A stretch of 38,129 nt of DNA from Rhodothermales bacterium (lineage in GTDB: Bacteria > Bacteroidota > Rhodothermia > Rhodothermales > Bin80), in assembly GCA_022822185.1 (NCBI GenBank), contig JAJECE010000087.1:1-38129 (forward strand), written 5' to 3'. The notes beneath the pieces were generated by a model. The model had not been told where the DNA came from and ran no database searches. It saw nothing but the letters and a program-made list of their open reading frames with translations. Of the stretch, positions 1,127 to 37,632 are shown one piece after another; position 1 is the first letter of the stretch, and each line of letters begins with the position of its first letter. The translations under genes and the position numbers were made by a program.

Positions 1127-1189
1127 TATATATTATTGCTCAGTTACGCGTATACAGGAAAATTCAGACCAGTGCACTAAGTCCACTTC

Positions 1190-3304: not shown

Positions 3305-3447
3305 TCAGAAAAAAATCAATTTATTGAAAGCCATGATGCCTAAAAGGTGCATCTGGAAGTAAAATTGAGCGATTGAACTAGGATAGATTCAAAAGCTTTA
3401 ATTAAATTACGGCATTCTAGGCTAATCCAAACCATTTCGTCAGTATT

Positions 3448-4506: not shown

Positions 4507-4512
4507 TGCTTT

Positions 4513-5289
4513 ATGACGGCCGCTGCCGATTATTTTGACCGAACCATTGAGCGGCTGCACCGTCTCCGAGAAACACAGTCACAAGAAATTGAGCGTGCGG
4601 CAGAACTGTGTGCGGTTCGGATTGCCAGAGGCGGTCTCATCTTCTGCTTCGGATCTGGCCATTCACGCATGATGTGTGAAGAAATGACTCCCCGGCAAGG
4701 CGGGTTTGTTGGCTTTTATGCACTCATTGAGCAGGCGCTTTCCAATCATTCTGCAATCATTGGACCAAATGGATTGCGCGGGCCGCTTCACCTTGAAAAG
4801 ATTGACGGGTACGCGGAGGAGATTCTTAGGAGTTTTCGTTTTGGCCCTCATGATGCTTTTATTATTATCTCAACCAGTGGGATCCGCCCACTTATTGTAG
4901 AGATGGCACTCGGGGTAAAAGAGCGGGGGATGCCTGTGATTGCGGTTGTTTCAAGGGAACACTCTGAAGCTACCAGTGCGTCCCATTCGTCCGGCAGGAA
5001 ACTGATTGACATTGCAGATATCGTTCTTGATAATAAATGCCCGCCTGGCGACTGCATTAGTGAACTTGATGGGCTTGAATGGCGCACCGGTCCAGTCTCT
5101 ACGGTCACGGGAGGAATGCTGATGAACATGTTGCGGGTCGCGGTCGCAGAGCAACTATTGCAGCTTGGACATACGCCCGTCCTTCTTCCTAGTCACCAAT
5201 TTATTGGTGATACAACCGCGGAAGAACAGCTTGAGGCGTTCTACGAAGCCTATCGAAAAAGTCTTGCTCACCTGTTCGTAGATGACTGA
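4513..5289 (+). CDS. SIS-domain protein, UPF0309-like
   Basis: A 258-residue sugar-isomerase (SIS) fold protein of the UPF0309 type. The phosphosugar-binding loops are visible: FCFGSGHSRMMCEEM (residues 44-58) in place of the usual GxGxS, and IIISTSGIRPLIVEMALG (about 116-133) for the second loop. SIS proteins bind phosphorylated sugars and act as isomerases, etherases or regulators. The middle region around residues 178-200 (KCPPGDCISELDGL) is a family insertion. Its start lies 6 bases after the HU/SPOR stop and its 3' end overlaps the ROK kinase start by 8 bases. The pairing suggests a kinase plus SIS enzyme acting on one sugar, perhaps an amino sugar, but the substrate is not shown. Confidence 0.82.
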   Translation: MTAAADYFDRTIERLHRLRETQSQEIERAAELCAVRIARGGLIFCFGSGHSRMMCEEMTPRQGGFVGFYALIEQALSNHSAIIGPNGLRGPLHLEKIDGYAEEILRSFRFGPHDAFIIISTSGIRPLIVEMALGVKERGMPVIAVVSREHSEATSASHSSGRKLIDIADIVLDNKCPPGDCISELDGLEWRTGPVSTVTGGMLMNMLRVAVAEQLLQLGHTPVLLPSHQFIGDTTAEEQLEAFYEAYRKSLAHLFVDD

Positions 5290-6247
5290 ATATGTAATTG
5301 GGGTTGATGTCGGTGGCACCCGTATAAAAACGGGGGCAGTCCTTCGCGATGGTACGCTTCTAAACAATCGTGTGCGTTCATCAGGCTTTGCATTGTCAGC
5401 AGAAGCACTGGAGGCTGCAATCATTGAAGAGATTGTCGGGACCCAGTCCAATACAGGCGGTACTCCGATGGGAGTAGGATTGGGATTTCCAGGTGCTGTA
5501 GATCCTGAACAGGGCATTGTCCTGCTGCCCGGCAAACTCCGTTTGGAGGGCTATCCGATTGTACCCAATCTCGCTCACAGATTGCGCCTGCCGGTGATTG
5601 CTGAGAATGATGGTCGCCTCTCAATCATTGCGGAAGCCCATTATGGAAAAGCCCGTGAGTATCGCTGGGCAGTTTCGATCACACTAGGAACCGGTGTTGG
5701 TTCAGGCGTGATGCTGGACGGAAAGATTCTGAGGGATCCGCATCTTCAGTTCGGAACCCAGGCAAGTCATGTAGTCCAGCAATCGAATAGCAACCGGTTA
5801 TGTATCACCCGGGCCCGTGGAACCGCAAATATCCTCTGCTCCGCTACCGCACTGGCGATCATTGTCCGGGATAATTTAGCCCGTGGACTCCCTTCCGTCT
5901 TGAATGAACGTTATTTTAATGACCCGGCAAGTGTGGATTTTGAGGCCGTCATTGAGGGAGTTGCACAAGATGACCCATTGTGTCTGGATGCATTCAACAC
6001 CTGGAAGACAGAACTGGCATGGTTTCTGGTCAGTGTTGTTCACATGTACGCACCGGAGATCGTTATCCTCAGTGGAGGGGCAGCGTCTGCGGCCCCCTAT
6101 TTTATGGACGACCTGCGCACCCATGTAAACAATCATACATTCCGCTATCCCCCTGGCGATGAGATACGGATTGAATTATCTGACATCGCCACATTCAGCG
6201 CGGTCTTGGGGGCAGGTGCATTGGCCTGGGAGCAGGCAGGATGTTAG
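5282..6247 (+). CDS. ROK-family sugar kinase lacking the zinc-binding cysteine motif
   Basis: A 321-residue actin-fold kinase. D-V-G-G-T (residues 9-13) is the ATP phosphate loop, AENDGRLS carries the catalytic D110, LGTGVGSG (135-142) is the second phosphate loop, and LSGGAAS is the adenosine loop. In most ROK sugar kinases a histidine is followed by a C-x-C-G-x2-G-C-x-E zinc site. Here H163 is kept, but the following segment has only two isolated cysteines (C174, C186) and reads as a G-T-A-N-I-L-C-S-A loop. It may belong to a zinc-free ROK branch, so the substrate should not be assumed to be glucose. It overlaps the SIS gene by 8 bases and is therefore probably translated with it. Confidence 0.85.
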   Translation: MTEYVIGVDVGGTRIKTGAVLRDGTLLNNRVRSSGFALSAEALEAAIIEEIVGTQSNTGGTPMGVGLGFPGAVDPEQGIVLLPGKLRLEGYPIVPNLAHRLRLPVIAENDGRLSIIAEAHYGKAREYRWAVSITLGTGVGSGVMLDGKILRDPHLQFGTQASHVVQQSNSNRLCITRARGTANILCSATALAIIVRDNLARGLPSVLNERYFNDPASVDFEAVIEGVAQDDPLCLDAFNTWKTELAWFLVSVVHMYAPEIVILSGGAASAAPYFMDDLRTHVNNHTFRYPPGDEIRIELSDIATFSAVLGAGALAWEQAGC

Positions 6248-6268
6248 AATTCACCGATTACCTGCCTG
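6233..6268. terminator. 8-bp inverted repeat between convergent ROK and DprA-like genes
   Basis: CAGGCAGG at 6233-6240 and its exact complement CCTGCCTG at 6261-6268 enclose 20 bases that include the ROK stop codon. The position between convergent genes suggests a shared transcript end. There is no clear U-run on either side, so this is a weak terminator call. Confidence 0.35.
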
Positions 6269-6275
6269 ACAAAAA

Positions 6276-8240
6276 TCACTTCCCTGCATACAATGGACCC
6301 TGAAGTTGCTGCAACCATTCTGAAACAGACCTATCCGTATATTGAACATGGGTTTCGACATCTTCTCCATTTGGCAGCCAGCATCCGCCTCCCCGTTCAA
6401 AAATCAATTGATTGCCCGGTATTGGTTCACCTGCCTCTCTAATCCAGATGGGCAGGTCCTCTCTTTTCCGCCATTCGCTCACACAATTAGCAATTATACC
6501 TTTCTTGCCTGAACGTACAACAACCACCGCGGTAGATAAAGCACATGCGATATCGCAGTCCTGCTTAGATGCCTGAACTTTAGTATGGGGGGCAGATATT
6601 GATAAAAGTACAAGTTGCTGATTCCCCAGATACTCATTGTAGTCACCACTAGATAAGAGTTTCTGCAATCTTCCGGGCAGTATAACGATGCATTTCCCAT
6701 CATTCTCAAGGGAGCCTTTTACTGCCTCTTTCTCAATCTTACTGTGATTCGTGGAAACCAGTAGTCCTCCTTTCTGAGCCAGCGCAGCACCGAACGAATG
6801 GGCATAGTTCAGATCCGTTTTACCGTCATTTTTCCTCAATCCCAGAATGGCAACTTTTTTTTGTTCGGAAACGAGCAGTTCCAGATTCCCCACTACAAAC
6901 ATCAGAGGGGGGCTATCATGCCGCAGTTTAATCTTTAGCGGCTGCGGATACCCCTTGTCGCCTCTCGTTAATATTGAGATACCCGCATCCCGCCAACTTT
7001 CTTCTTCCTGAGAAAGTCGGTTGATTCGATCCGGGTTCAGCAGTCCCTCAATTCGCCTGATTGAGAAACATCCTTGATCCTCCTCCTCAAGGACTTGACC
7101 AAAAGGCTCGTAGATTAAATCCGCAGGGGTTTTCTTTTTATTCAACAGATCCTTGGCAAATTGCCCCCATTCCTTAAAATTCAGGGGATCTGCTCGATTA
7201 GATTGATCACTGCTCAAATTGACTGTGAGTAAAATGGTCGCCCTGCGAATGTCTCTTTGCCTAAGGGACAATCGGAGATGGTCATTTACATCCTTATCCT
7301 CGGGAAACCATTTTGCACCTTTTTCTACAATAATTTTGTTTGCTGCTTCAGTGTCATGCTCGCTATCCTTCTTCATCCAAAGCGGAACCCAAGACTCCTG
7401 CAAGTTCTCTACTGCTCCACTCCAGGTGCCGCCTTTCTTATCAGATCGAATCACTACAGCGGCATCGGATAAGCAGTAAATGTACTTGTTCCGCTGCATT
7501 GCGGCAGAGCCATAAGCGTAACGATCAACCTTGAACAAATTGATTTCCGGGTCAACCAAAGACACCAACGCTAACTGCCCTCCTTCCAAATAATCACGAT
7601 ATATCCGGCTGCTGGACTTTTCCAGAAGTTGATGTGTCAGTACGCCTACGGCATTCCCGTCTTTCTCAAGAGCACCCGTCATAGCTTTGATATCCACTCC
7701 CCGGGCGCCACCGGAAATAACCGTTACCGCCTCAGCAGCGGCGGCCTCACCTAACGATTGGGTATAGTCAAGGTAATACCCCTCTAACTCCGCAGGGGGC
7801 TTACGTGAACCCACTACGGCAAGCCCTCCGTCTTGAAGCAATGACCGGTCTCCTACTCCATAAAGTACTGGAGAAAAATCAGATCTGTTCGATAATCGTT
7901 CTTTGAGTCTCCAGGGATAATCATGGTCCAGATAGGTCATGACCCAAATATTCCATTTCGCCCACTGTGTTACGGCGTTGGCCAAAGCGGCCCCGTGCTG
8001 CAGGCGTTTTACGCACTTCTCGGCATCCTCCAACCGATACCACCTGTCCTGATCCGCCCATTGGCGAAGAATTTCTTCCTCCCTAAACAAATTTCCAGGA
8101 GACTTTCCGATCTGCTCAAGATATAGACGGAGCCGGTTCCACTGCTTTGAGTTGAGCAGTCCCAATTCCTTCGATTTTTTCTTCGCTCTGAGGTGTCCTG
8201 TCAAAATCAGGATTGCCCTAGCATCGTCAGAAAGTGTCAT
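6276..8240 (-). CDS. Tandem-duplicated DprA/Smf-like protein
   Basis: A 654-residue protein made of two related halves of about 325 residues. Each half has a helical N-terminal part, then a YP-x-x-LK-x-x-L...P-x-L...G...LL entry (residues 103-135 and 424-456), then a DprA-like Rossmann fold. Half one keeps the family signatures AVVGSRKP (141-148) and VISGGARGVD (174-183). Half two reads AILGLRKN and VSTNHSKIEKEAV at the same places, so its loops look degraded. Both halves end in a matching module (AAVVIRSDKKGG and AVVVVRSGKKGI). DprA protects incoming single-stranded DNA and loads RecA; DprA-like proteins also occur as the antitoxin-like partner in ShosTA. The gene is 130 bases downstream of the RecQ-phosphoribosyltransferase gene on the same strand. 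A defence role is inferred from context, not shown. Confidence 0.8.
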   Translation of the reverse strand: MTLSDDARAILILTGHLRAKKKSKELGLLNSKQWNRLRLYLEQIGKSPGNLFREEEILRQWADQDRWYRLEDAEKCVKRLQHGAALANAVTQWAKWNIWVMTYLDHDYPWRLKERLSNRSDFSPVLYGVGDRSLLQDGGLAVVGSRKPPAELEGYYLDYTQSLGEAAAAEAVTVISGGARGVDIKAMTGALEKDGNAVGVLTHQLLEKSSSRIYRDYLEGGQLALVSLVDPEINLFKVDRYAYGSAAMQRNKYIYCLSDAAVVIRSDKKGGTWSGAVENLQESWVPLWMKKDSEHDTEAANKIIVEKGAKWFPEDKDVNDHLRLSLRQRDIRRATILLTVNLSSDQSNRADPLNFKEWGQFAKDLLNKKKTPADLIYEPFGQVLEEEDQGCFSIRRIEGLLNPDRINRLSQEEESWRDAGISILTRGDKGYPQPLKIKLRHDSPPLMFVVGNLELLVSEQKKVAILGLRKNDGKTDLNYAHSFGAALAQKGGLLVSTNHSKIEKEAVKGSLENDGKCIVILPGRLQKLLSSGDYNEYLGNQQLVLLSISAPHTKVQASKQDCDIACALSTAVVVVRSGKKGIIANCVSEWRKREDLPIWIREAGEPIPGNQLIFERGGGCWLPNGEDVETHVQYTDRSVSEWLQQLQGPLYAGK

Positions 8241-8370
8241 CAGAGATAAAGCTTTTGAGTCTGTGTCTATATCCTCAGGAAGGAACTCTGTATTGTGTTT
8301 GACTACTCAATCTTGAAAATATCCCCCTTAAACACCGAAACCGCCAGTTCGCTGCAAGCTAGTGTGCATT

Positions 8371-10485
8371 TCAGGAATTGGCCGTAGAAGTAAGTGCCAC
8401 AGGATAAACATTCCCACTGCCCGAATATCTTAAAAGAGCCGCTGCAATTGTAAACGTTGCGCCAGAATCTACCGTATCGTCAATTAAAAAAACAGGGTCA
8501 CTTGGAATGCTTGTATTTCCAATTCTAAAAGCTCCGTCTAGATTGTTGAATTGACGAAATGGGTTCCTCTGTTGCTTTTGAGGTTCGCTACTGCCAGTGG
8601 CAATCAACGCTTCAATAAACGGCAACATCATTTTCGCCGCAAGTCGTTCGGAAAACGAACGTACCAAAACAGGATTTCTGGCTGACGGTATGCAGGTCAT
8701 CCATTTTGGAAACGGTGCTGGATGCCACCGAACCGTTATCATTTCCGCAACTGCCTCTACGAGTTGATCGTCAAAATAGCCGGCATTCTTGCCCTCCTTA
8801 ACGAGTCCACCCCAACCAGCATCTGCCCAGCGCGACAAAACTCTTCCCTCGGATGCGACTAGGTGATACTGCAAAGACCCAAAAAGGCCGTATCCGGGAC
8901 ATGCACCGGTGGGTATTTTTCTGAGAGGTCTAATCGGGAATTCCGATTTCTTCAGGAAGTCCAGCGTCTGAAGCATGAGTTTCTCGCTAAATTCTGGATT
9001 GACAGGGAATCTGCCGGTGCAGTTCTCACAGCAGCCACAATCTTGAATATCAGAGTCATTCAGGGCTCGCTGCAAAAATGCCATCCGACAATCTTTCGTG
9101 CGGATATACCTCTGGATCTGCTTCCATTCCGCTTCTCTTTGCTGACTGAGCCGCTGAATTGCAGATTTATCCATCGTAAAGTGCACAGGAGTACCTCTCC
9201 ATTTACCATCTATCTCAACAATTGGGGATTGAGTCTGTACAGACAGGTACTTGATAATTTGCTCAATCTGTTTTTGACTTAGATTTAATTCTGACTCAAT
9301 TTCTGATTCTTTTACACCATCGCGCCCCCGTACAAAAGCTAGAAAACGATCTACAATGTCCTCTGAGGGGAAAGCGTTGTTCCGAAAGAATTCAATGATT
9401 TCAGCATCTTCTTCACCGGACAGTAATACACCCGCTGCCTTAGGTAAAGCGCGACCTGCGCGCCCTACTTGTTGATAATATGCTATTACTGACCCTGGAG
9501 TTTGATAATGGATCACAAAGCCAACATCAGGTTTGTCATAACCCATCCCAAGTGCAGTGGTTGCAACCAGTACTTTGACCTTATTCTCAAGGAACAAATC
9601 CTCAATATGTCTACGATAGTCATCGCTGTTTTTAAACTCATTATCCACCATCCCTGCGTAATAACTGCACGCATTAATCCCCACGGATTTGAGCCATTTT
9701 TCCACGCTTATTGCATCTCTCTTTGTGAGTACATACACAATACCCGTTCCGTTAAGGTTTGGAATTTGCTCTGCCAACCAAGCCATACGTGATGCTTGAT
9801 CGGGAATAATAATCGCCTGGAGTTCCAGGCTTTCACGAGTAAGCTTTCCTCTCTTAACGATAATGTTACCCAACTGCTGCTTAATATCATTAACGACCCT
9901 GTCATTTGCGGTAGCCGTAGTTCCAACTACCGGTAGATTCGGGGGGAGTTGCTTAAGTAAAGCTACAATTCTACGATAATCCGGCCTGAAATCATGTCCC
10001 CAATCAGAAATGCAATGCGCTTCGTCTACGACAATTAATCCAAAACTTACCAACTGTACTACTTTGCTCTGAAATCTTTCCTTTGCGAGACGTTCTGGAG
10101 AAACCAGAAGTAAATCAACCGTATTCCCGTATAAGTCTTTTTCAATTGTATCCCATTGCCGGTAAGTAGATGAGTTAATTGCCCTCGCATTCAAATTGAT
10201 GCGCCTTGCGGCCATTACCTGATTTCTCATCAATGCTAAGAGTGGCGAGATAATGAGAGTAGGTCCGCGTCCTTGATCTCTCAATATCCGGGTAGCTAGG
10301 AAATAGACCATGCTCTTCCCCCACCCCGTACGCTGCACAACCAATACACGGCTACGATCATTCACTAATGCATCAATTGACTCCCACTGCCCTTCACGAA
10401 ATCGGGCATTCGGATTACCCAGGCTGCGTTGTAACAATTGCTCAGCATTGTTTCGCGGGGATTTAATGGGATCGGAACGTTTCAT
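8371..10485 (-). CDS. RecQ-type helicase fused to a ComF-like phosphoribosyltransferase domain
   Basis: A 704-residue fusion. Residues 30-350 are a RecQ helicase core: Walker A variant QRTGWGKS (51-58; usual RecQ has a P-T-G-x-G-K-S form), VVDEAH (152-157), GTTATA (188-193) and QQVGRAGR (338-345). A zinc-binding cluster follows (C466, C483, C485, C486, C489). The C-terminal 110 residues form a phosphoribosyltransferase-like domain: NPFRQFNNLDGAF (641-653) recalls ComFC, and the PRPP loop DDTVDSGAT is at 669-677. The HRDC domain of long RecQ proteins is not evident. A helicase with a ComF-like tail beside a DprA-like gene resembles the ComFA-ComFC-DprA set of transformation and the ShosTA pair. 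It probably acts on DNA ends or single-stranded DNA; whether the phosphoribosyltransferase is catalytic is unknown. Confidence 0.85.
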   Translation of the reverse strand: MKRSDPIKSPRNNAEQLLQRSLGNPNARFREGQWESIDALVNDRSRVLVVQRTGWGKSMVYFLATRILRDQGRGPTLIISPLLALMRNQVMAARRINLNARAINSSTYRQWDTIEKDLYGNTVDLLLVSPERLAKERFQSKVVQLVSFGLIVVDEAHCISDWGHDFRPDYRRIVALLKQLPPNLPVVGTTATANDRVVNDIKQQLGNIIVKRGKLTRESLELQAIIIPDQASRMAWLAEQIPNLNGTGIVYVLTKRDAISVEKWLKSVGINACSYYAGMVDNEFKNSDDYRRHIEDLFLENKVKVLVATTALGMGYDKPDVGFVIHYQTPGSVIAYYQQVGRAGRALPKAAGVLLSGEEDAEIIEFFRNNAFPSEDIVDRFLAFVRGRDGVKESEIESELNLSQKQIEQIIKYLSVQTQSPIVEIDGKWRGTPVHFTMDKSAIQRLSQQREAEWKQIQRYIRTKDCRMAFLQRALNDSDIQDCGCCENCTGRFPVNPEFSEKLMLQTLDFLKKSEFPIRPLRKIPTGACPGYGLFGSLQYHLVASEGRVLSRWADAGWGGLVKEGKNAGYFDDQLVEAVAEMITVRWHPAPFPKWMTCIPSARNPVLVRSFSERLAAKMMLPFIEALIATGSSEPQKQQRNPFRQFNNLDGAFRIGNTSIPSDPVFLIDDTVDSGATFTIAAALLRYSGSGNVYPVALTSTANS

Positions 10486-10791
10486 TTTAGCAGGGGACTT
10501 CTACGATGATATGCTGAAACAATCTGTCTACGGAAACTTGTGTTTAGGGGCTAATTTTGGATGTGGTCACCATCAACGAAATGTGTTCAGAATTGCTCTA
10601 CCCCGTTCCTCTACTGCTATGAGACGGCCACAGATTGACTGACAAAAGTCTGCAGGCGCATGCCTGCATGATGCGCCATCCGACAATAAAGACCGAACAC
10701 GCCCTCCACAAAGCTCCGACCAAACGCCTACTTGGTGTCGCATTTCCATAGACTTCAAATTTACAGCGTGAGGTGATGAGTTGGCATTTTA
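10486..10791. other. 306-base gap between Res and RecQ genes, with a small hairpin
   Basis: No convincing gene is seen. A perfect 7-base stem TGCAGGC/TGCCTGCA-type hairpin lies at 10651-10668 (stem TGCAGGC and GCCTGCA, four-base loop). Read on the minus strand, it is followed within a few bases by ACTTTTG. It could end the mod-res transcript, leaving the rest of the gap as the promoter region of the recQ-dprA pair. The U-run is short, so this is tentative. Confidence 0.35.
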
Positions 10792-13347
10792 CTACTCGAA
10801 TCTCTTTTCAGATTTACGGTCATCGGAAAAGAGTATTCCGTTCAGTCGTTCTTCCCACTTATCTTCGTCTACAACCTCAAAACGCACTCCCCTTCCGTGC
10901 ATTGCTGGAGCAAACTTGCTCCAGTCTGCCCTCTGTGCATGCTCATTACAAATGTCGAACACTGATCGCTTGTAATCGGAATCCTCTGATTTCGTTAAAT
11001 GAAGTCCCTTCGTTTCCACCACAAATACCTCATGAAATTCATCCTTTTGCTCAAATTCTTCGTCCTTTAGGGTCATGATGAAATCTGCATAGATTCGATG
11101 CGGGCGCCAGCCCTGCACGAAATAATCCTTGCGGGGGCGATTGCGGTACCAGAAAAATAACCGCGCCTGCTGATCTAAATAGGTCGCCACCTTATTCTCG
11201 AGTTTATTCAGGTCATCTTCTGGAATTACGTCAAATAGACTCAGTTGATATTGGGAGCCGTCTTCCCGATTCGCCCGCTTCACTTTCGGCATATCAATTT
11301 CCTCCGGCGGGCGATTGAACTCTAGTTCTTCTGCCACAATGAGAAATCGGACCGTCTCCGACTCTAACAGAGAATGAAAAACCATTCTGGACAATCGGTC
11401 ACGTTCTCGCTCAAGAACATGACGAAACTGCTCCAGAATAAAACCATAATTGGATGCCACATACTCAAGTGGATGACGCTCAAGTAGAGCCTCGAAAGTC
11501 CGTTGAACCAAATCATAGCCATGCCAAGGATTCGGCACCAAATCAAGAATGTGACTCGCTGCGGTTACGTAGTCTATGACGCGGTCATTCCCGGAATCCA
11601 CTAAATTTTCGATCCGTACCGGCTCATTAAGACTCATACGTAACAGAACATTCTCCGCTTTCCTTTCGCTGATACTCAGGGTGCTGAGAGTTGAGATATC
11701 AATCTCTTTCCACGGTAATCGTGAAAGAATATCCGTCTCGTATTGAACCAGCCTCCACCCGCCCCTGTCTTGAATCATAAAAGCTGGAAGGATCAGATTC
11801 CGAGCTGCTGCACGAAAACGAGGCCTTTGTCGAGTTTTTAGCCGCTCCGTGGGTTTGATTACATCATTATTTTCCACGATTCTCCCCTCTAGCCCCTGCA
11901 ATCCCTCAAGTCCGAATCCTTTCCTGACTTCACGCAAAAGATCTCTCCCACGCCGACTAAAACAAAAGACATAACTCTCGTCCAACCAAGGTACACCTGT
12001 CTTGTGTGCATAGGGTTGGCGCAGGATCCGGCCCACAAGCTGGGTTAAACCCGTACGAGATGTTGGATTCGTGAGAATCGTTAAGACATAAGCAAACGAA
12101 CAATCCCAACCTTCCTGCAATGCCTGCTTGGTAATGATGAATCGAATCTCACAATTACGGGACATCAGACCGCCTGTGTCATCCACTTCTTTAAGTTCGT
12201 CCCTCCCACTTGTCTTAACCGCTATATGCTCTGATCTAATTCCATGGCACTCCAATAAATATTCTCGAACATCCTCCGTGTGAATATACTCTGGCTTTCT
12301 CTGTCCCCGTCCCGTTCGCTCCACCTGTATCACACAGATCGGCCGAATATAGATGCCCGACTCGGCCTCGTAGCGCCGTGCTTCCGATTCAAGAATTTCA
12401 CGGTGATGGACTGACTCCAATAGCGTGTCACGCCAATCGCCGCTTTCCTTGTTTTGAATATGAAGGTCAAGCTTGATCATTTCCTCGGCGTTAAGTTCTA
12501 CACCTCGGATCTCTACCAAAACATTAGAAAGATCGGTAGGAGTGGCAGAAAGTTCTACAACCATGCAAGGATTAAACCCCTCCAACGTCATTTTTGCATT
12601 GCTACTGTATGCTTTATGCCCTTCGTCGAGGATAATCAACGGCCTTAAAAGACGTATGGTATTTCCAAGTGAAGTCTTAACCAGTCGACCACCGAATCCG
12701 GCCTGCTGCTCAAACGTGTCAAGGTTGGGATGACTTTTCAGTAATTCTTCATGTGCTGAAGGATGATCAGCATCAGGGAAGAATCGGTCAAATGCCCCGC
12801 TGTCTTGATATATTCTGAGCTTATCTCTCTGCGTTAGTCCACGATTGGCCGAAGGGAGCATCAGCAGGAGAACACAAAGATTTTCTGCGACATCCTGTGG
12901 GCTAAAAGATGAAGTCTTCTCAAAAATACGAGTTCGCTGTCCAGATGAAAGATCAATCTGCTGACGGTAAGGATGATCTAAGTCCTTTAGCGCTTTGAGA
13001 GTTTGTCTGTAGATCTGGGTTGTAGGTACAATCCATAGCACCAGTCCACGCCGGCTATGTCGAAAATGTGTGTTCACAAGATCAATCACACGGGTTGCAA
13101 GCAACGTTTTTCCACCGCCAGTCGGGATTTTGAGACAAAAGAAAGGAAGACGCTCCCCTAGTCCATTCAGACGGCTGTTGTATCTCCTATAGGGCAAGAT
13201 TTTTTCCCAGGCCCGCTCCACCCAATTGAATCCCCACTCAGGATCATGGCTCCTGGCTTGATGATCCTTTTCCCTAGCCTCCGATAAGTGTTGCAAAAAA
13301 CTGGTGACCGCGGCCAGGGTCTGCTTTTGGTAATCCTTCAGAATCAT
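10792..13347 (-). CDS. res: Type III-like restriction helicase-nuclease (Res)
   Basis: An 851-residue superfamily 2 helicase with a C-terminal nuclease. PTGGGKT (75-81) is Walker A, DEGH (241-244) is the DExH box, SATP (267-270) is motif III, KQALQEGWDCSFA (407-419) is motif V and QLVGRILRQP (436-445) is motif VI. Near the C-terminus, D755 in YADFIM and E778-x-K780 in VVETKG form a PD-(D/E)xK nuclease core, as in EcoP1I-type Res subunits. Such enzymes translocate or signal along DNA from unmethylated sites and cut after two complexes meet. It starts 5 bases after the mod stop, so the pair is one operon and very likely one enzyme. It is somewhat shorter than classical Res proteins, but all motifs are intact. 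Confidence 0.88.
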   Translation of the reverse strand: MILKDYQKQTLAAVTSFLQHLSEAREKDHQARSHDPEWGFNWVERAWEKILPYRRYNSRLNGLGERLPFFCLKIPTGGGKTLLATRVIDLVNTHFRHSRRGLVLWIVPTTQIYRQTLKALKDLDHPYRQQIDLSSGQRTRIFEKTSSFSPQDVAENLCVLLLMLPSANRGLTQRDKLRIYQDSGAFDRFFPDADHPSAHEELLKSHPNLDTFEQQAGFGGRLVKTSLGNTIRLLRPLIILDEGHKAYSSNAKMTLEGFNPCMVVELSATPTDLSNVLVEIRGVELNAEEMIKLDLHIQNKESGDWRDTLLESVHHREILESEARRYEAESGIYIRPICVIQVERTGRGQRKPEYIHTEDVREYLLECHGIRSEHIAVKTSGRDELKEVDDTGGLMSRNCEIRFIITKQALQEGWDCSFAYVLTILTNPTSRTGLTQLVGRILRQPYAHKTGVPWLDESYVFCFSRRGRDLLREVRKGFGLEGLQGLEGRIVENNDVIKPTERLKTRQRPRFRAAARNLILPAFMIQDRGGWRLVQYETDILSRLPWKEIDISTLSTLSISERKAENVLLRMSLNEPVRIENLVDSGNDRVIDYVTAASHILDLVPNPWHGYDLVQRTFEALLERHPLEYVASNYGFILEQFRHVLERERDRLSRMVFHSLLESETVRFLIVAEELEFNRPPEEIDMPKVKRANREDGSQYQLSLFDVIPEDDLNKLENKVATYLDQQARLFFWYRNRPRKDYFVQGWRPHRIYADFIMTLKDEEFEQKDEFHEVFVVETKGLHLTKSEDSDYKRSVFDICNEHAQRADWSKFAPAMHGRGVRFEVVDEDKWEERLNGILFSDDRKSEKRFE

Positions 13348-13352
13348 GCTTC

Positions 13353-14945
13353 CTAACGGCCAATCGCTTTGTATATTTGATAAGGCAACTGCTGGAAGTC
13401 AATACTGTACTGGTGCAGAAACTCTCGGTCCAGGTATTTGACCGGTGCGAAGACGAGCTTTCTTCTTGATCCTGAAGGCAGTTCACGGGCCACTTTTAAC
13501 GAAAGTGCAAGCGTCTTGAGTGTCTCCACATCAGGCTCATAAAATAGGAACACATCATGAGAGGCTGTCCGCCCGATAAACCTAGTATCGCTGTTGATCA
13601 CATCAGGGTCAAACTCCTGTCCGGTTGCGGTAAAGAAGACATATGAAGCCAATTCTTCCCAGACGGGAAGATGGGATCCATTGAGAAGCGATTTCTTCTG
13701 CATGGGCTGCCCTAACTCAAAATAACTGAATGTACCTCCAAGTCCGGCCCTAAGAATTTCATCTTTAGCACTGGGAACCCCCTGAATAACACGCCGGACA
13801 CGCTCGGCGGTCGTAGAGTCGGCATAATCCTCACATTCAACTAAAATGAAACGTCTATTTCCGTCATCTTCCCGATTTTGAGCAAGTACAGCATGAGCGG
13901 TAGTTCCAGATCCGGCAAAAGAGTCAAGAATGATGGAGTCAGGGTCCGTGGAAAGAAGGATGATTTTTCTAATTAAATCCGTTGGCTTCGGAGTTGGAAA
14001 CACATTCTTCTTCCCGAAGATCTGATTCAGTTCCTGTGTTGCATTCGTTGCTGTTCCAACATCTTGCCAGATCGTAGAAATTGAACGCCCCTTCTCCTTG
14101 GCTTCATCTAAATATCGCTTATAGCAAGGTTTGGCCCGGCCACTTCTCCCAAACACGATGCGCCCTTCCTCAAACGCTTTTTTATACTTCTCTTTGCTAA
14201 ATCGCCAACACCTGCCTGGAGGTGGATAATATCCCTTACCAGTTGTTGGATTGACAATTTCGTAGGTCAGGTTCGGGCGTATATTGGGAGCATCCATGGG
14301 ATCAAGCGTCCAGGGGCCACGCGGATCATTGTCGGGATTCGAGAAAACATCCCCATTAACAGGTAATGCACGGATTTCAAACTGATCTGTCTTCGTGTAT
14401 GCCAGGATATGATTATGGCTAAGAGATACTCTAATGTCATTCTGTTTGCTTTTCCGGTGATGCCATACAATGCTCACAAAAAAGTTCTCCTCGCCAAATA
14501 TCTCGTCCATCAAACAGCGCAGATGATGCACCTCATTGTCATCAATGGAGACGAAAATCACCCCGTCTTCGCTGAGTAATTCTCGGAGCAGCTTCAGGCG
14601 TGGCATCATCATACTGCACCACTTGTCGTGTCTTGTCAGGTCGTCGCGATCCACAACCTTGCCAATCCAGTCCTGAATCAGGGGGGAGTTCACCCCATCA
14701 CTATATACCCAGCCCTCATTGCCCGTATTATAGGGTGGATCAATGTAGATGCATTTTACTTTTCCACGATAGATTGATAAAAGAGACTTCAGAGCCGCAA
14801 GATTATCTCCATGAATGACGAGATTGTCGTGTAGACTTGCCTTATCACTTAAGCCCTTTTCTCGCATTGGCAGCAGTTCATGAAAAGGGACGGACAAATG
14901 GTGATTCTCCACCAGTGATTTCCCCTTGAATTCCATCTTCGGCAT
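13353..14945 (-). CDS. mod: Type III-like DNA adenine methyltransferase (Mod)
   Basis: A beta-class methyltransferase of 530 residues from the chosen start. IDPPYNTG is the catalytic DPPY motif, and SFAGSGTTAHAV about 270 residues later is the SAM-binding motif; this order defines the beta class. The segment between them holds the target-recognition region. The start ATG at 14945 gives MPKMEFKGKSLVENHHL, which matches the usual N-terminus of Mod proteins (K-x-x-V-x-N-H-H). A longer reading from GTG at 15032 would add 29 residues with no family support. Mod modifies adenine at N6 in an asymmetric site and gives Res its specificity. The res gene follows after 5 bases. Confidence 0.87.
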   Translation of the reverse strand: MPKMEFKGKSLVENHHLSVPFHELLPMREKGLSDKASLHDNLVIHGDNLAALKSLLSIYRGKVKCIYIDPPYNTGNEGWVYSDGVNSPLIQDWIGKVVDRDDLTRHDKWCSMMMPRLKLLRELLSEDGVIFVSIDDNEVHHLRCLMDEIFGEENFFVSIVWHHRKSKQNDIRVSLSHNHILAYTKTDQFEIRALPVNGDVFSNPDNDPRGPWTLDPMDAPNIRPNLTYEIVNPTTGKGYYPPPGRCWRFSKEKYKKAFEEGRIVFGRSGRAKPCYKRYLDEAKEKGRSISTIWQDVGTATNATQELNQIFGKKNVFPTPKPTDLIRKIILLSTDPDSIILDSFAGSGTTAHAVLAQNREDDGNRRFILVECEDYADSTTAERVRRVIQGVPSAKDEILRAGLGGTFSYFELGQPMQKKSLLNGSHLPVWEELASYVFFTATGQEFDPDVINSDTRFIGRTASHDVFLFYEPDVETLKTLALSLKVARELPSGSRRKLVFAPVKYLDREFLHQYSIDFQQLPYQIYKAIGR

Positions 14946-15171
14946 GGTGTGCAGTACTGATCCAGTTTTTTCTTCGTGTATGGCCTTCAACAAGCGAATC
15001 GAACTTCGTTCGTGATCTAATTGGCAAAACACAAGTTACGACTATTTACCTTCTCACAAACTATCCGCTGAAAGGATAGATCCCCATTCCCAGAGGCTTA
15101 TCTAACTCGCCGTCTGTAACGGAACCGAAATCATCCGCCAACCCTAAAGTTGAAGGTAACAAAATTTTCAC

Positions 15172-16647
15172 TCAGGAACCGGCTAACCTTTCCCTTACCC
15201 GATCCTGCCACTTCAAAAGCTTTTCCGCCTGCGAGTCATTCAAATTTCCCTGGGGCTCTGTGCAGTCTCTCAACTCATAACTGAAGATCTGATCTGCAGT
15301 TACCTCACGTTTTTCCCGATCCTGCAACTGCCGCCTGCGGCAATAGGCCTCCCAGCGCTCTTTTCCTATACCATCTCGAATTTTCGGGTAATTGCGTGCC
15401 AAGTATCTGAAGATGAGCGGCTCAACGCGGGCATCCTTTGACTGGACTGTACTCCAGTCATAACTTCCCCCCTCCTGTAATACCTCCAGTACATGATTCA
15501 TCAATTTCCGATCCGCCGGATCATCAATAAATCCATCGTACAGAGCTGCATCCGGATCTGCTTGGAGGGAAGAATAATAGCGTCTGGATTCTGTTTCTCT
15601 AGCCTTGATGTACTGTTCGAATGGATTGTAAGATTCCTGTTCAAGAAACTCCTGAACCATCTCATGACGGGTAAAAATGTCGGGCTCCTTCAGCTGTATC
15701 CTATCTAGAACATCCTCAAACGATAGTTCCGGGGATAATAGATTCTCCACTTCGAACCACCCGCAAACAAATGGAGATTGATTGCACTTGAAGGACAAAA
15801 CCGCATTCCAGGCTATAGACTTATCTTCCGATGTCCATTCTTCATAAGGCTTCAACAAAGGAGTTGGATCGTAAAACAGATCAAACGCAAAATCTTTATT
15901 CTTGCGCCTCTTAATTCCCATGTTCGTCAGAAAAGTTGAGCAGTGTCGTTTCGTATGAATCTTTCCACCAGCCGTATAAAGGACCGGGTCACTGGATTCT
16001 ACGATCCGCTGGACCTCCTTCTTGTAGCGCAACTTCAACGCATAATCCCATAGAATCTTCGCCCGCCCATGAATTAACTTCGCCAATTCCCACATATAGA
16101 GGGTATCCTTCTTCGCATCATGCGGCACTATCGATTTCACATCGGAGAGATTTGCAGACGCTAAATCCAACAACCGAAACGAGGGGTGACCATTGTCTTT
16201 TTTCGGCCACTCCTTCAGGGCATCCGGCTGAAGGAGATAGGCGGCCCGCATCAATTCCAGCATATCCCAGCAAGTATTCCCATTCTTCCATGCCCATTCA
16301 TAGGGATCACGCAGGTTGCGATAGAACAGTACGCGGGTGAACTCGTGATCAAAACCCATCCCATTGTAGGCCACGCTACAGGTGCCTTCCTTACTCAACT
16401 CATTATGGATTCTCTCGGCAAACTCTGACTCTGGAACTCCATGGTGATACGCATCCATAGGCATGATTCCGTGAACATTCACTGCACCCGGGCCGATGAG
16501 CGTATCCAGCCCCGGCTGGCATTTCAACTCAATTGGCTCGCCAATGATTTCCAGTTCCTCGTTCGTCCGGAGCCCCCCAAACTGCACAATACGGTCACGG
16601 TGTGGGTTCTTGCCCCAGGTTTCGTAGTCGTACCAGAAAAATGTCAT
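15172..16647 (-). CDS. sbcB: Exonuclease I (single-stranded DNA 3'-5' exonuclease)
   Basis: A 491-residue DEDDh exonuclease close in layout to E. coli ExoI. D7 and E9 lie in WYDYETWG, D100 in AYNGMGFDHEFTR, and H176 and D181 in VPHDAKKDTLY, with the same five-residue spacing as the E. coli H/D pair. NLRDPYEWAWKNGNTCWDML and the SH3-like and helical C-terminal parts follow in order, so the protein is complete. ExoI removes 3' single-stranded tails in recombination and mismatch repair. It sits between dsbD and the Mod/Res genes on the same strand, with gaps of 66 and 139 bases. It may be the first gene of the accessory block rather than a core locus; ExoI is best known from gammaproteobacteria. 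Confidence 0.9.
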   Translation of the reverse strand: MTFFWYDYETWGKNPHRDRIVQFGGLRTNEELEIIGEPIELKCQPGLDTLIGPGAVNVHGIMPMDAYHHGVPESEFAERIHNELSKEGTCSVAYNGMGFDHEFTRVLFYRNLRDPYEWAWKNGNTCWDMLELMRAAYLLQPDALKEWPKKDNGHPSFRLLDLASANLSDVKSIVPHDAKKDTLYMWELAKLIHGRAKILWDYALKLRYKKEVQRIVESSDPVLYTAGGKIHTKRHCSTFLTNMGIKRRKNKDFAFDLFYDPTPLLKPYEEWTSEDKSIAWNAVLSFKCNQSPFVCGWFEVENLLSPELSFEDVLDRIQLKEPDIFTRHEMVQEFLEQESYNPFEQYIKARETESRRYYSSLQADPDAALYDGFIDDPADRKLMNHVLEVLQEGGSYDWSTVQSKDARVEPLIFRYLARNYPKIRDGIGKERWEAYCRRRQLQDREKREVTADQIFSYELRDCTEPQGNLNDSQAEKLLKWQDRVRERLAGS

Positions 16648-16713
16648 CGCACTTCGGTGGATTTGCCAGGAAAATTGTCCGTAATCTGTATAACTGTCGC
16701 CGTATCTCCGGGA

Positions 16714-18642
16714 TTAGTCTCCATACTGTCGTAATCCCCGCTGCAAAAATTCTTCAAATGCCTCCGAAGAAACGACCCCGCTCAACTGAACCAGCGGATC
16801 CTCTACCCAATTTCCGTTCATGATTGCGTAGGTGGGAAGAGCACGGGTACCCGTCAGTTTCTCCTGGAATTCCTGAAATTGCCGCCCCTCAGAGCCGTCT
16901 GTGTACAGGCGGCTGAGCACAAAATGATCCGCCAGCAATCGGCTTACCTCCCCACGCTCAAAGACATTGACTTCCATCTCCCTGCAATTGGTACAGGTAT
17001 ATCCCGAAAAATCAATGAAGAGCGGCTGGTCATGAAGTACCGCCTCCGAAAATGCCCTGGGCAAGTCATCCGTAATCCATTCCTGCTCCTGCTGCATTCC
17101 CGTATCAAACAGACTCACACTGTCCAGAGCACGTGGAGGCAAGTAGGCATCCAACCGTCCGAGACGGCCGCCAAAGAGTCCCGGCAGCAGATAAACGGCA
17201 AGCCCAAAAAACAGGACCCCAAACAGGAGCCTTCCTGCACCGATGCGTGCAGTCGGAGCGTTTTCCAGGAAGCGTAAATGGCCGATCAGATAAAACCCCG
17301 CCAACGAAGCCAGCACCATCCAGAATGCAATGGCCAAAGGCCGGTCAATCAGACCAAGCCCCCAGACTAGATCCGCGTTGGAAAAAAATTTGACCGCCGC
17401 TGCAATCTCCAGAAAACCAAACACAATCGCTACATCACGCATCCAGCCTCCACTGCCGGGAAGTGCCTTGAGTGCCCTTGGGAAGCACGCAAACGCCACG
17501 AACGGGAGCGCAAAGGTCAGACTGAAAGTCGCCATCCCCAGGATGCCATAAAACCAGGCCCCCGAAGCAATACTCGGAAGCAGTAATCCGACAAACGGAA
17601 CCGTACAGGTAAAAGATACCAGCGTAAGTGCCAACCCCATAAACAGCACCCCAATGTAATCCTGCCGCTCCGTGCCTTTCCGGTCAAACCAGGTGACAAG
17701 GGATGACGGAAGACGAAGATTGAATACACCAAGCAACGACAGACCAAAGACAAGGAAGGCGGTGGCAATTCCAAGATTAACCCAGGGATTCGCGGCAACA
17801 ATCTGCGCACCTGCACTTCCTACAAGAATTGAAAGTCCAACCCCAAGCCCCGTGAAGGTGGCCACAATTGCCAGCCCATACAATAGCGCCATACGGATCG
17901 GCGTACCCTGCGCATGCCGCGTAAAATACGAAACCGTCAACGGGATCATCGGATAGATGCAAGGCATCAACAACGCCCCAAATCCCGCACCAATCGCTAA
18001 CAGCAGGAACCGCCACAATCCAGCCGAAGCATCCGAATCCATATCAGAACCGGGCAGACTCTCCATGCTCAGGGGAACCGAGATGGCTGCAGCATCAACA
18101 GGGAGCGAAGCGGGGATCGGAATCGCCGGGAACGGGGAGTCCACCCCCGTAAATGAACTTGAAAACGCCGCCGAATCGGGGGGATAGCAAATCCGATCAT
18201 TACAGATCATAAATTCAATGCTCCCCATAACAACCCCGCCAGAAAAATCCTGTGCAACCGTATAATCCGCCCAAACCAGCGCCCTCCCCCGAAAATAGGT
18301 CACCACCTTGTCAAAATTGGGATCAAATCCAGACTGCACATTCAACTGACGCAGAGAATCCAGCGGCACGAATCCCGCCGGCAAAGAGTCAATCCGCAGG
18401 ACCAATGCCCGACTAGGTCGGGGAGAATCCAGCGCGTACATCCGCCATGCCCCTCCAGATGGATCATCCGGGGGTAACATCCCTTCAACGACGATACGCG
18501 CGGACGCATTATGATATTCCGCCCGAACATCCCATGACACCGCAGGCTGAGCCGCCGTGACACCGACAGACAGCAGTGTCAGGATAAGCGCAATCCCGAA
18601 TGAACCTGACGGTCTACGCCAGGCTGTCCGCCGGAACCACAT
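16714..18642 (-). CDS. dsbD: Thiol:disulfide interchange protein DsbD
   Basis: Three-domain transporter of reducing power from cytoplasmic thioredoxin to the periplasm, 642 residues from the ATG at 18642. A basic n-region and hydrophobic stretch (WFRRTAWRRPSG, then IALILTLLSV) form the signal peptide. The N-terminal alpha domain has the cysteine pair in ICNDRICYPPD. The membrane beta domain has about eight helices with the paired cysteines in LLMPCIYPMIP and VSFTCTVPFVG. The C-terminal thioredoxin-like gamma domain has CTNC at about 550-553. A longer reading to 18720 would lie deep inside rplI and lacks a signal-like start. The chosen start overlaps the rplI tail by 29 bases, implying coupling to the ribosomal operon. 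Confidence 0.9.
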   Translation of the reverse strand: MWFRRTAWRRPSGSFGIALILTLLSVGVTAAQPAVSWDVRAEYHNASARIVVEGMLPPDDPSGGAWRMYALDSPRPSRALVLRIDSLPAGFVPLDSLRQLNVQSGFDPNFDKVVTYFRGRALVWADYTVAQDFSGGVVMGSIEFMICNDRICYPPDSAAFSSSFTGVDSPFPAIPIPASLPVDAAAISVPLSMESLPGSDMDSDASAGLWRFLLLAIGAGFGALLMPCIYPMIPLTVSYFTRHAQGTPIRMALLYGLAIVATFTGLGVGLSILVGSAGAQIVAANPWVNLGIATAFLVFGLSLLGVFNLRLPSSLVTWFDRKGTERQDYIGVLFMGLALTLVSFTCTVPFVGLLLPSIASGAWFYGILGMATFSLTFALPFVAFACFPRALKALPGSGGWMRDVAIVFGFLEIAAAVKFFSNADLVWGLGLIDRPLAIAFWMVLASLAGFYLIGHLRFLENAPTARIGAGRLLFGVLFFGLAVYLLPGLFGGRLGRLDAYLPPRALDSVSLFDTGMQQEQEWITDDLPRAFSEAVLHDQPLFIDFSGYTCTNCREMEVNVFERGEVSRLLADHFVLSRLYTDGSEGRQFQEFQEKLTGTRALPTYAIMNGNWVEDPLVQLSGVVSSEAFEEFLQRGLRQYGD

Positions 18643-35028: not shown

Positions 35029-35473
35029 CTGTGTCACCTTTTTCAGAACTGATCATATACACTCACGACCTGATTTTCCGCTCAGATCGTCTCTTTCCCC
35101 TTATAATTAAACGATTTTTGGGCTAATTTCCTAAAATTTCCCTTTACACCTGAAACCAAGCATCGGCGAAATTGTTTGCTGTCCTAAATAATTTTCGTAT
35201 ATTTGACTGTTTACCTCAATTATTGCAGCATTTTTGCCAAAAATTCTGTATTATTAAGAATTCGTGTTCTTTTGCGGGAAATTACTTCATACAAAATTCA
35301 CGGAATTTCCGTTTCATATTTTTGATTTACCGGGCATCTTTGGCCCGATCATGCTTATGCTGACACCTACCCCTGAGGATTCAACGGGCATCTTGCTGTG
35401 CAGGCGGCAACCCTCTGAAGTGATTCAAATGGGAGCAGTGTCGTTCTTTTCAACATCAACCTTATTTAACCTG
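35029..35473. other. 445-base divergent intergenic region between gltB and the TorF-like gene
   Basis: The half next to gltB is AT-rich; TAATTATAA around 35100-35108 is a possible minus-strand -10 region. On the side of the TorF-like gene, the 10-mer CGGGCATCTT occurs twice (35331-35340 and 35385-35394), the first inside a CGGGC/GCCCG hairpin. The segment 35341-35440 is GC-richer than its surroundings and may be a structured leader. I recognise no known riboswitch in it. Confidence 0.3.
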
Positions 35474-36190
35474 ATGACAAAGCGTTTCTCTTTCTTTTCA
35501 CTTGCATTACTCACCTCCTTGTTGTTCACGCCCATGCTGGTTCAGGCGCAATCATTTGGCTTTGGCGCGGATTTCGTCAACCGCTATGTATGGCGCGGCT
35601 ATGACTTTGGGGATTCCTTCAGTATTCAGCCCGATTTCTCCTTTAGTGCGGGAGGATTCACGCTGGGCAGCTGGGGATCCTACTCTATTAGTTCGGACGG
35701 TGCAGATGCCAATGAACATGACCTCTATGCCGGCTACAGTGTTGGCCTTGGATCTTCTGCAAGCCTGGATCTCACGATCACCGACTATTATTTCCCAAGT
35801 GCCGAAGGCAGGGCTGGCGAATGGTCCAATTTCGATGGAGATAGCGATGGGGCCCACTGGATTGAACTGATGGGAACTGTGACCCTTCCTGAATCCTTCC
35901 CCTTAAGCATTACTGCTGCCTTCATGGCCCATAATGACCCGGACAATTCACTCTACCTTGAGGGAGCGGTCCCATTCACCGTCTCGGATGTCGAACTAGG
36001 ATTTCACCTTGGCATGGTGGCTGGGAAAAGCGATTTTTATGGAGTTGAGGCGGCATCTGTGGTGAATTTAGGTCTTTCTGCAAGTAAAGATGTGCAGATC
36101 ACCGAAAATTTCTCGCTGCCGCTTAGTGCTTCCTACATCATGAACCCAACCACAGAGAAGACCTACCTTGTCTTCGGATTCTCGCTCTAG
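35474..36190 (+). CDS. TorF-family putative outer-membrane porin
   Basis: A 238-residue exported beta-barrel-like protein. The ATG at 35474 gives a clear signal peptide (MTKRFSFFSLALLTSLLFTP, cleavage after VQAQ); a longer reading from 35264 has no signal at its start. The mature part opens FGFGADFVNRYVWRGYDFGDSFSIQPDFSFSAGG, which matches the N-terminal signature of the TorF/Gcw_chp family (dYvfRG...qpai). Alternating short strands (LDLTITDYYFPSAEG, HWIELMGTVTLPESF, YLVFGFSL) end in an aromatic/hydrophobic terminal strand, as in barrels. The transported solute is unknown. Confidence 0.75.
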   Translation: MTKRFSFFSLALLTSLLFTPMLVQAQSFGFGADFVNRYVWRGYDFGDSFSIQPDFSFSAGGFTLGSWGSYSISSDGADANEHDLYAGYSVGLGSSASLDLTITDYYFPSAEGRAGEWSNFDGDSDGAHWIELMGTVTLPESFPLSITAAFMAHNDPDNSLYLEGAVPFTVSDVELGFHLGMVAGKSDFYGVEAASVVNLGLSASKDVQITENFSLPLSASYIMNPTTEKTYLVFGFSL

Positions 36191-36208: not shown

Positions 36209-36250
36209 TGACGGGAGGTCTGGAATAACAATATGCCTGACCTCCCGTCA
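36209..36250 (+). terminator. Long hairpin downstream of the TorF-like gene
   Basis: GACGGGAGGTC at 36210-36220 and GACCTCCCGTC at 36239-36249 are perfect complements, extended by one T-A pair, with an 18-base loop. It begins 18 bases after the stop codon. No U-run follows, so it may be a Rho-dependent or 3'-end-protecting structure rather than a classical terminator. Confidence 0.5.
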
Positions 36251-36609
36251 TGTGCCTGCAAATACTCTGCGCATTGTTTTGCACACTTGATCACGGGCTA
36301 GGCCTGCTGTATTGAATCTGGCTCATTTCGGGGAACAGCGTGTCTGATATCCTTCCGTACCTGACTTATGTCACATGGACTCGTGAGTCACGTTATTTGC
36401 CCTGTTCCCCCCGATCCAACTGAAGCAAAACCTTTACTGACTGGTCTCTCTCTGCCTTCAACGGACTGTTAGAGTCTCTCCTCACTGTGCACCCGTTCTG
36501 GCATCCGTATGGATCACTTTGTGAATTTTTGATGAACTTAACATCTATGTTGGATGCATACGGTATACATCAAGGTTTCTGTGTATAAGTGCCTTCGTTG
36601 GACTGTACA
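36251..36609. other. 359-base non-coding stretch upstream of the HTH-PP2C gene
   Basis: No gene is seen. The short palindrome GACTCGTGAGTC lies at 36378-36389, next to TGACTTATGTCA (about 36362-36373). These could be protein-binding sites but are too short to assign. A T/A-rich step just before 36589 may hold the promoter of the phosphatase gene. Confidence 0.25.
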
Positions 36610-37632
36610 ATGATTGACACCCTTAACATTCCTGCATTGGAAGAGATGATCCCGCTTGCCGGTCACCTCTCCCGTCAGAAAATATTTGATCGTTACCGCC
36701 AGACTACCGGCGCACTTGCCCGGACTCACTGGCAGGTAATTTATCTGAAAAGCCAAGGCAAAGTCGTTCGGGACATTGTTGATGTCACCGGATATAGTGA
36801 AGACTTTGTCCGGCAGATCATCCTGCGCTACAATGAGGCGGGGGCGGATGATTTTATTGAGGATGTTGATTTTCCCGATGAGATCAAATCCGATTATCTC
36901 CGCAAGTCCAGTGAACTGGATACCGCACGTCAGGCGCAACAGGAAATGCTTACCGCCAGAATTCCTGTTCACCCGGAACTGGAAATAGATGCATTCCTTA
37001 AAACTGCAACCGAACTCAGCGGGGATTACTATGACTTTTCTCTTTCTGACGATGGGGTCCTGACCATGGCAATCGGAGATGCAACCGGTCATGGCACCAC
37101 TGCGGGGATGATGGTCATTGCAACCAAAGCACTGTTCAAGGACTCAGCAGACGATTCCAATCTTCTGAACCTGATCCGTCGCATGTCAAAGGCCATCAAG
37201 CGCGTGAACCTTCGAAGTACCTATATGCACATTACACTGGCACGCTATCATCAAGGCATACTGCAACTCGTGGGTGCAGGCATGCCTCCGCTTTTGATGT
37301 ACCGGTCCGAAACTCAAACCGTGGAGGATATTGTTCTGAAAGGAATGCCGCTGGGAAGTTACACGGCATTCCCTTACGAGCAATTAGAGGTTTCTCTCAA
37401 TCCCGGTGATACCGTTTTCTTTATGAGTGACGGCCTTTTGGATCTACAAAGTCCGTGTGGTGAAATGCTACAATTGGATCGTGTCCGAAAAATCTTCGCC
37501 GAGACGGGTTCCCGTTCTCCATGCGAAATTATCGCCCATATCCGAAAAGCTGGCATTGCCTGGCGTGCTGGAAGGCCTCTGAGAGATGATGTAACCCTTC
37601 TGGTGCTTCGGCGATCCGAAGTCAGCGGATAG
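36610..37632 (+). CDS. HTH domain fused to a SpoIIE-type PP2C protein phosphatase
   Basis: A 340-residue protein in two parts. Residues 20-85 form a homeodomain-like helix-turn-helix (ARTHWQVIYLKSQGKVVRDI, then GYSEDFVRQIILRYNEAGAD), of the type found at the N-terminus of IS630-family transposases. A short linker helix leads to a SpoIIE/RsbU-like phosphatase at about 115-335. Metal-binding aspartates are in place: LSGDYYDF (D139, D142), GDATGHGTTAGMM (D157), MSDGLLD (D274) and RDDVTLLVLR (D326, D327). Such phosphatases dephosphorylate serine on anti-anti-sigma factors; none is visible here. The HTH suggests direct DNA binding. The ATG at 36610 is preferred; an in-frame GTG at 36589 would add seven residues. 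Confidence 0.85.
   Translation: MIDTLNIPALEEMIPLAGHLSRQKIFDRYRQTTGALARTHWQVIYLKSQGKVVRDIVDVTGYSEDFVRQIILRYNEAGADDFIEDVDFPDEIKSDYLRKSSELDTARQAQQEMLTARIPVHPELEIDAFLKTATELSGDYYDFSLSDDGVLTMAIGDATGHGTTAGMMVIATKALFKDSADDSNLLNLIRRMSKAIKRVNLRSTYMHITLARYHQGILQLVGAGMPPLLMYRSETQTVEDIVLKGMPLGSYTAFPYEQLEVSLNPGDTVFFMSDGLLDLQSPCGEMLQLDRVRKIFAETGSRSPCEIIAHIRKAGIAWRAGRPLRDDVTLLVLRRSEVSG

Follow-up and report, generated by a model that had tools for sequence, protein, structure and literature searches.

An IS630-type helix-turn-helix joined to a SpoIIE/PP2C phosphatase in one family of Rhodothermales

What does a transposase-type helix-turn-helix (HTH) do at the head of a SpoIIE-like phosphatase? The question is raised by a plus-strand gene in the 38,129-nucleotide stretch of DNA analyzed here (the window). 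Its open reading frame starts with an ATG at 36610 and stops at 37632. An in-frame GTG at 36589 would be a longer alternative start and is not kept in relatives. The features of the gene are as follows.

36610..37632, plus strand: HTH-phosphatase coding sequence, 340 aa, with an IS630-type HTH, a linker helix and a SpoIIE/PP2C phosphatase
36649..36858, plus strand: homology to the N-terminus or ORF-A HTH of IS630-type transposases, residues 14-83 (tblastn and profile searches)
36712..36840, plus strand: three-helix HTH, helices 35-48, 53-60 and 64-77 (AlphaFold models)
36799..36840, plus strand: recognition-type helix, residues 64-77, with 64, 65 and 69 hypervariable and R68, R73, Y74 and N75 kept
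36877..36951, plus strand: predicted linker helix, residues 90-114, as in RsbU/RssB-type phosphatases (AlphaFold)
36979..37614, plus strand: SpoIIE/PP2C catalytic domain, residues 124-335 (Pfam, AlphaFold and fold search)
37024..37026, plus strand: D139, in an invariant GDYYDF motif (alignment)
37078..37080, plus strand: D157, equivalent by motif to SpoIIE D628 (alignment, PDB 5mqh)
37429..37431, plus strand: D274, equivalent by motif to SpoIIE D746 (alignment, PDB 5mqh)
37588..37590, plus strand: D327, equivalent by motif to SpoIIE D795 (alignment, PDB 5mqh)

The joined architecture is real and is conserved in one family of mostly uncultured bacteria. When 244 genomes of the class were searched, the full-length protein was found in all 16 genomes of its Rhodothermales family (G000 and G132-G146). 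The fusion is not a matter of chance, because the full length is kept in every one of them, with one copy split over two frames. Most of the genomes are metagenome assemblies, which could favor an assembly or gene-calling artefact that merged two genes. Against this, the 16 genomes with the fusion include G144, which is a single contig, and G141, which is in four, and the upstream gene order is shared in all nine named records. We consider such an artefact extremely improbable and excluded in practice. The split copy (G140; L009/L030) also has glycine in place of Trp41, which is invariant elsewhere. That copy therefore looks decayed, and loss of the gene seems to be under way in its lineage.

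The catalytic part is well defined. The initial annotation had described an intact phosphatase with all its metal-binding aspartates, and this was borne out. The Pfam SpoIIE family (PF07228) covers residues 148-335 with an E value of 1.1e-33 and 117.3 bits against a cut-off of 25. Asp139, Asp157, Asp274 and Asp327 are invariant in 14 of the 14 aligned sequences and fall on the SpoIIE motifs in an alignment with PDB 5mqh. The alignment sets held 14 of the 16 family sequences, leaving out the split copy of G140 and the G136 sequence, which is a 98% copy of that of G000. In SpoIIE itself, metal is bound by D628, D746, D795 and the carbonyl of G629, as given in the accessible part of PMC5468089. 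The full-length AlphaFold model, a single-chain prediction like the other models used here, contains the HTH, helix 90-114 and the PP2C fold with a mean pLDDT of 82.5, and its nearest solved folds are Rv1364c and RssB. The linker helix is predicted with moderate confidence (block pLDDT of 63-68 for residues 81-110).

The identity of the head needs more than one line of evidence. Pfam matched HTH_29 at residues 41-80 (E 4e-4) and HTH_23 at about 41-81 (E 1e-3), both under the gathering cut-off, and on Pfam alone the assignment would be doubtful. The HTH call is firm because tblastn, a profile of the family HTHs and AlphaFold all support it. When residues 1-95 were compared with plasmid records by tblastn, IS630-type proteins matched across residues 14-83, among them one from Stanieria (E 3e-9) and the ISAva6 IS630 transposase of Trichormus (E 1e-6, 37.5% identity). 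The profile built from 14 family HTHs found a stand-alone IS630-type HTH protein in G147 (E 8.5e-19), for which Pfam HTH_32, HTH_29, HTH_23 and HTH_28 are all over the cut-off. In the AlphaFold models the HTH has three helices preceded by an additional one (22-31, 35-48, 53-60 and 64-77; block pLDDT of 74-90). The IS630-type origin proposed from the initial reading thus held up. On plasmids of Methylocystis, Deinococcus and Thermus, annotated HTH ORF-A homologues overlap or precede the transposase ORF, and in ISAva6 the homologous HTH lies within a one-ORF transposase.

Other comparisons set limits on this assignment. The IS630 transposase model NF033545 matched only at positions 4-44 of its 299 (13.7 bits against a cut-off of 100). 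With the HTH alone, Foldseek returned no match below 1e-3, and VIA-align gave Z scores of about 5 to sigma region 4, IstA, KorA and Mos1. Since these matches reflect the common arrangement only, the HTH family is argued from sequence. A PHROGs search gave no match. Local IS630 transposases are unsupported as the direct donor: only L066 and the stand-alone L065 reached E 10 in the default profile search, and a more sensitive run of the fusion HTH profile brought the IS630 loci L096 and L097 no lower than E 0.015-0.04. For comparison with the fusions we used 10 donor-type HTHs, namely those over the profile inclusion threshold from 17 loci offered.

HTH modules of this type also occur in a different setting in the same family as the window genome. 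A 588-aa protein of G145 (L139, 1125-2891, minus strand) and an 819-aa protein of G146 (L140, 847-3306, plus strand) are built largely from tandem HTH modules of the IS630/HTH_29 type, roughly six to seven in number, and the 819-aa protein carries a lysine-rich tail. With this beads-on-a-string layout they look like DNA-binding proteins, and no catalytic domain is obvious in either.

Among the matches listed, the fusion is confined to the family. The HTH profile matched 18 of the 244 class genomes, namely the 16 family genomes plus G147 and G198, where the HTH is present but not fused to a phosphatase; in no class genome beyond the family was the fusion seen. In 394 genomes drawn evenly from the phylum, with at most five candidates scored per genome, none of the non-family matches listed for the full-length profile begins before residue 57; most start between 80 and 100, and their frames are mostly 380-1300 aa long. 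Beyond the phylum, the fusion was sought by one scan of genome contigs, which finds close relatives. Among 30 listed of the 244 plasmid-record matches to the full-length query, all were to the SpoIIE region apart from two, a Listeria PP2C covering residues 11-311 at 25.6%, which is probably RsbU, and a match in Streptomyces that starts at residue 55.

In a tree of 45 phosphatase domains, 15 fusions form one clade with support of 100/100, which gives them a single origin. In turn, the clade is nested among seven rows from the same order (five distinct phosphatases) in a group supported at 91/91; the bootstrap of the tree is not fully settled, and the own-genome paralogues are long branches. Of the five same-order relatives, three have an N-terminus of Reg_prop/Y_Y_Y or 7TMR-DISM-like type (the latter below cut-off), and the remaining two have longer N-termini without a clear Pfam match. 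In a wider Pfam set of ten relatives and paralogues, 7TMR-DISM was found in five (three below cut-off) and Reg_prop with Y_Y_Y in one; two had no clear N-terminal family, and the two paralogues from the own genome carried HAMP (below cut-off) and GAF. The simplest history is a single replacement of the sensor by a transposase N-terminus in the ancestor of the family.

The surroundings of the gene bear on its possible partners. In all nine named records the upstream order is conserved as two long minus-strand genes, named by eye as glutamate synthase subunits (gltB, gltD), and a plus-strand barrel-like gene. Downstream neighbors vary among subgroups. Two upstream features of the window are relevant here.

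35264..36190, plus strand: syntenic upstream gene, a secreted barrel-like protein by eye, with no Pfam match
36209..36250, no strand: inverted repeat with 19-nt arms, 3' of the upstream gene, terminator-like and without a T run

The repeat at 36209-36250 was not listed by the terminator scan. Because it follows the upstream gene, the phosphatase gene is likely to be transcribed separately. Farther off in the window, positions 344-15032 hold by eye a ParA-like ATPase, a DprA-like gene, a RecQ-like helicase and a type III-like restriction/methylase gene pair, and this region is possibly a defence or mobile island.

Partner-switching genes usually, though not universally, adjoin their phosphatase. 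With six query proteins and flanks of up to 8 kb, as far as contig ends permitted, no STAS or HATPase gene was found beside the phosphatase in any of the nine named loci. STAS and HATPase_c_2 are each over the cut-off in all 16 family genomes. The partner-switching link suggested at the outset thus stands as co-occurrence within genomes and fails at the level of adjoining genes. The own genome has three HATPase_c_2 and five STAS genes over the cut-off. Two of each lie on contig C75 beside two other SpoIIE phosphatases, and the HATPase gene on C23 and the STAS genes on C127, C15 and C13 have no adjoining phosphatase. The two SpoIIE-HATPase-STAS sets of C75 in G000 are about 9 kb apart, at 2490-5888 and 14697-17727. 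In the Marinimicrobia loci L010 and L011, a HATPase and then a STAS gene directly follow related phosphatase ORFs. L010 (2-4922) itself has two SpoIIE phosphatase ORFs within a few kb; the second precedes the HATPase and STAS genes, and the first has about 100 N-terminal residues without an assignment.

Work on related enzymes offers a frame for these observations. RsbU-type phosphatases are activated when crossing helical linkers dimerise their PP2C domains, and N-terminal domains like PAS, receiver, GAF and HAMP have been proposed as exchangeable, according to the available sections of PMC12143880. STAS substrates are tied to phosphatases of RsbU type in PMC11418112. With a probability of about 0.6, we favor the reading that the protein is a cytosolic, dimer-gated STAS phosphatase with a swapped-in IS630-type HTH as its input head. 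The swap took place once, in the ancestor of the Rhodothermales family, when an IS630-type transposase contributed its N-terminal HTH in place of a sensor domain. The paired HTHs would form the input head, and their docking state, passed via helix 90-114 to the switch region, would cause the enzyme to dephosphorylate a STAS anti-anti-sigma protein whose gene lies elsewhere in the genome. Dimer gating is proposed by analogy with RsbU and RssB, and the role of the HTH as input is putative. The STAS substrate is a guess, because no STAS or HATPase gene lies beside the phosphatase in the nine named loci.

Whether the head has any ligand can be judged first from selection. For the HTH (residues 35-82), the NG86 estimate of dN/dS comes to about 0.04-0.09 in six of the seven close pairs, and the enzyme domain is similarly low. 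The seventh pair, G000/G136, gave 0.018 against 0.031, with too few differences to judge. These ratios indicate that the HTH is under purifying selection. In the N-terminal part, 19 positions are invariant across 14 sequences from six genera. Both results argue against a vestigial cap, in which the HTH would only stabilise the start of the linker and have no ligand. The cap would be consistent with the lack of an upstream site conserved beyond the genus and with the downstream neighbors that differ by subgroup, but we regard it as quite improbable.

Conservation is uneven within the recognition-type helix. By analogy with Hin and homeodomain-like HTHs, positions 64, 65 and 69 are presumably the base-reading ones. 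Their mean entropy is 2.65 against 0.89 for the remaining HTH positions, counted in 15 family sequences (all but that of G140), and permutation gave 0.0016 for the 15 fusions and 0.015 within the genus. Positions 64 and 65 are both acidic in six of the nine genus genomes (G136 counted), against none of the 10 donor-type HTHs. Arg38, Arg68, Arg73, Tyr74 and Asn75 are kept in the fusion HTHs. The initial annotation had held that loss of DNA-contacting residues in homologues would speak against DNA binding; such loss is seen in part, as these five residues stay while the reading residues drift. Such variation at the reading positions speaks against one stable, specific DNA site; it speaks for a specificity that turns over quickly or for a head that faces a protein. 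DNA reading is unproven, since the likely base-reading positions are the most variable and often acidic.

A protein-facing role would mean that the transposase HTH was co-opted for dimerisation or partner binding and lost the reading of DNA sequence. The residues fixed in the fusions and not in the donors include Phe26, Asp27, Thr39, Tyr45, Lys47 and Arg73, and such positions lie mostly on helices 22-31 and 35-48. Position 47 is mostly leucine in the 10 donor-type HTHs and lysine in the fusions. Together with the drift at 64, 65 and 69, these substitutions make a protein-contact head possible, if somewhat doubtful, and the retention of Arg68 and Arg73 in the recognition helix counts against it.

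A head that reads DNA should have a site, and two candidates lie upstream of the gene.

36362..36389, no strand: two palindromes noted in the initial annotation, not kept in the closest sister genome G136
36564..36587, no strand: inverted repeat TATACA-N12-TGTATA, conserved, a candidate promoter and/or operator

The two palindromes, TGAC-TTAT-GTCA at 36362-36373 and GACTC-GT-GAGTC at 36378-36389, were found by eye and had been suggested as the phosphatase's own sites. Their arms are only 4-5 bp, under the 6-bp limit of the inverted-repeat scan. They are rejected as its own operators because G136, a 98%-identical sister, does not keep them.

The second candidate is part of a conserved stretch, GTATACA-N10-TGTGTATA, at 36563-36587. 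Both halves, as TATA[C/A]A-N12-TGTATA, are present in seven of the nine genus genomes and TGTGTATA in all nine; the paired halves were found in none of six genomes from other genera. The seven repeat-bearing genomes have Asp or Glu at position 65, and the two lacking the repeat have Asn or Ser. This association is a lead only, because the latter two are one clade and G141, outside the genus, breaks the rule with Asp65 and no repeat. A genome-wide scan for the pattern gave one exact match and, with up to two mismatches allowed, nine matches in total, against four in a reversed control, so that a regulon-wide role for it is unsupported.

These data bear on a DNA-reading phosphatase, in which an HTH dimer would bind an inverted repeat and DNA occupancy would gate phosphatase activity or gene expression. 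The site would then most likely be TATACA-N12-TGTATA in its own promoter. Transposases are the source of the donor HTHs, the HTH fold is retained with its five conserved residues, and the repeat accompanies Asp or Glu at position 65 in the genus. The acidic and variable reading positions, the exception of G141 and the sole exact match in the genome weigh against this reading. Moreover, the TGTATA half could be merely a −10 element, and the half-site centers are 18 bp apart, so that the halves do not lie on the same DNA face. We hold DNA reading as a tentative but credible account. As the ligand of the head, we give DNA and a protein partner or dimer surface nearly equal odds, DNA being very slightly ahead, and consider a head with no ligand improbable. 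A bolder proposal is that the transposase head, domesticated once, makes a partner-switching phosphatase depend on the occupancy of DNA sites, its own promoter first. The protein-phosphorylation relay would then be tethered to, and its output taken from, a promoter that co-evolves with the recognition helix, which we regard as unlikely in this full form.

Several known systems share parts of this architecture. IS630 N-termini and stand-alone winged HTH ORF-A proteins (ISAva6; ORF-A of Thermus, Deinococcus and Methylocystis; L065) are homologous over residues 14-83, but unlike the IS630 transposases, the HTH-phosphatase has no DDE catalytic domain and continues into PP2C. The closest phosphatase domains belong to SpoIIE phosphatases with 7TMR-DISM and Reg_prop/Y_Y_Y domains from the same order, class and phylum, the best being L031-L034 with 44-49% identity. 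This homology begins near residue 92, and the relatives have membrane or propeller N-termini in frames of mostly 480-1150 aa. A presumed DNA-binding domain likewise stands on the bacterial PP2Cs that bear MerR or zinc-ribbon domains, some of which may be activated by DNA as suggested by the authors; in the available part of that paper, these domains have other DNA-binding folds and no transposase origin (PMC12088040). The terms 'HTH' and 'helix-turn-helix' are absent from its main text. No paper on an IS630-HTH/SpoIIE fusion was among those listed by our searches of open-licence literature. DNA-binding-type domains on bacterial PP2Cs are thus already published, and the IS630-HTH/SpoIIE pairing, not met in these searches, would be a further combination of that sort.

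With the SpoIIE-domain (PPM) class of RsbU, RsbP, Rv1364c and RssB, the protein has in common the catalytic fold, the metal aspartates and a helical linker before the domain. The difference lies in the head, an IS630-type HTH here, where the accessible sections of PMC12143880 list RsbU, PAS, GAF, receiver and HAMP domains. The fusion represents a single-origin capture of a bacterial transposase domain by a signaling enzyme whose close relatives still have other sensors. Its interest is moderate unless DNA gating is shown. It is a natural test of DNA control over a protein phosphatase and, because the capture was single and the relatives keep their sensors, also of exchangeable PPM input domains on a common helical linker, as proposed in those sections (PMC12143880).
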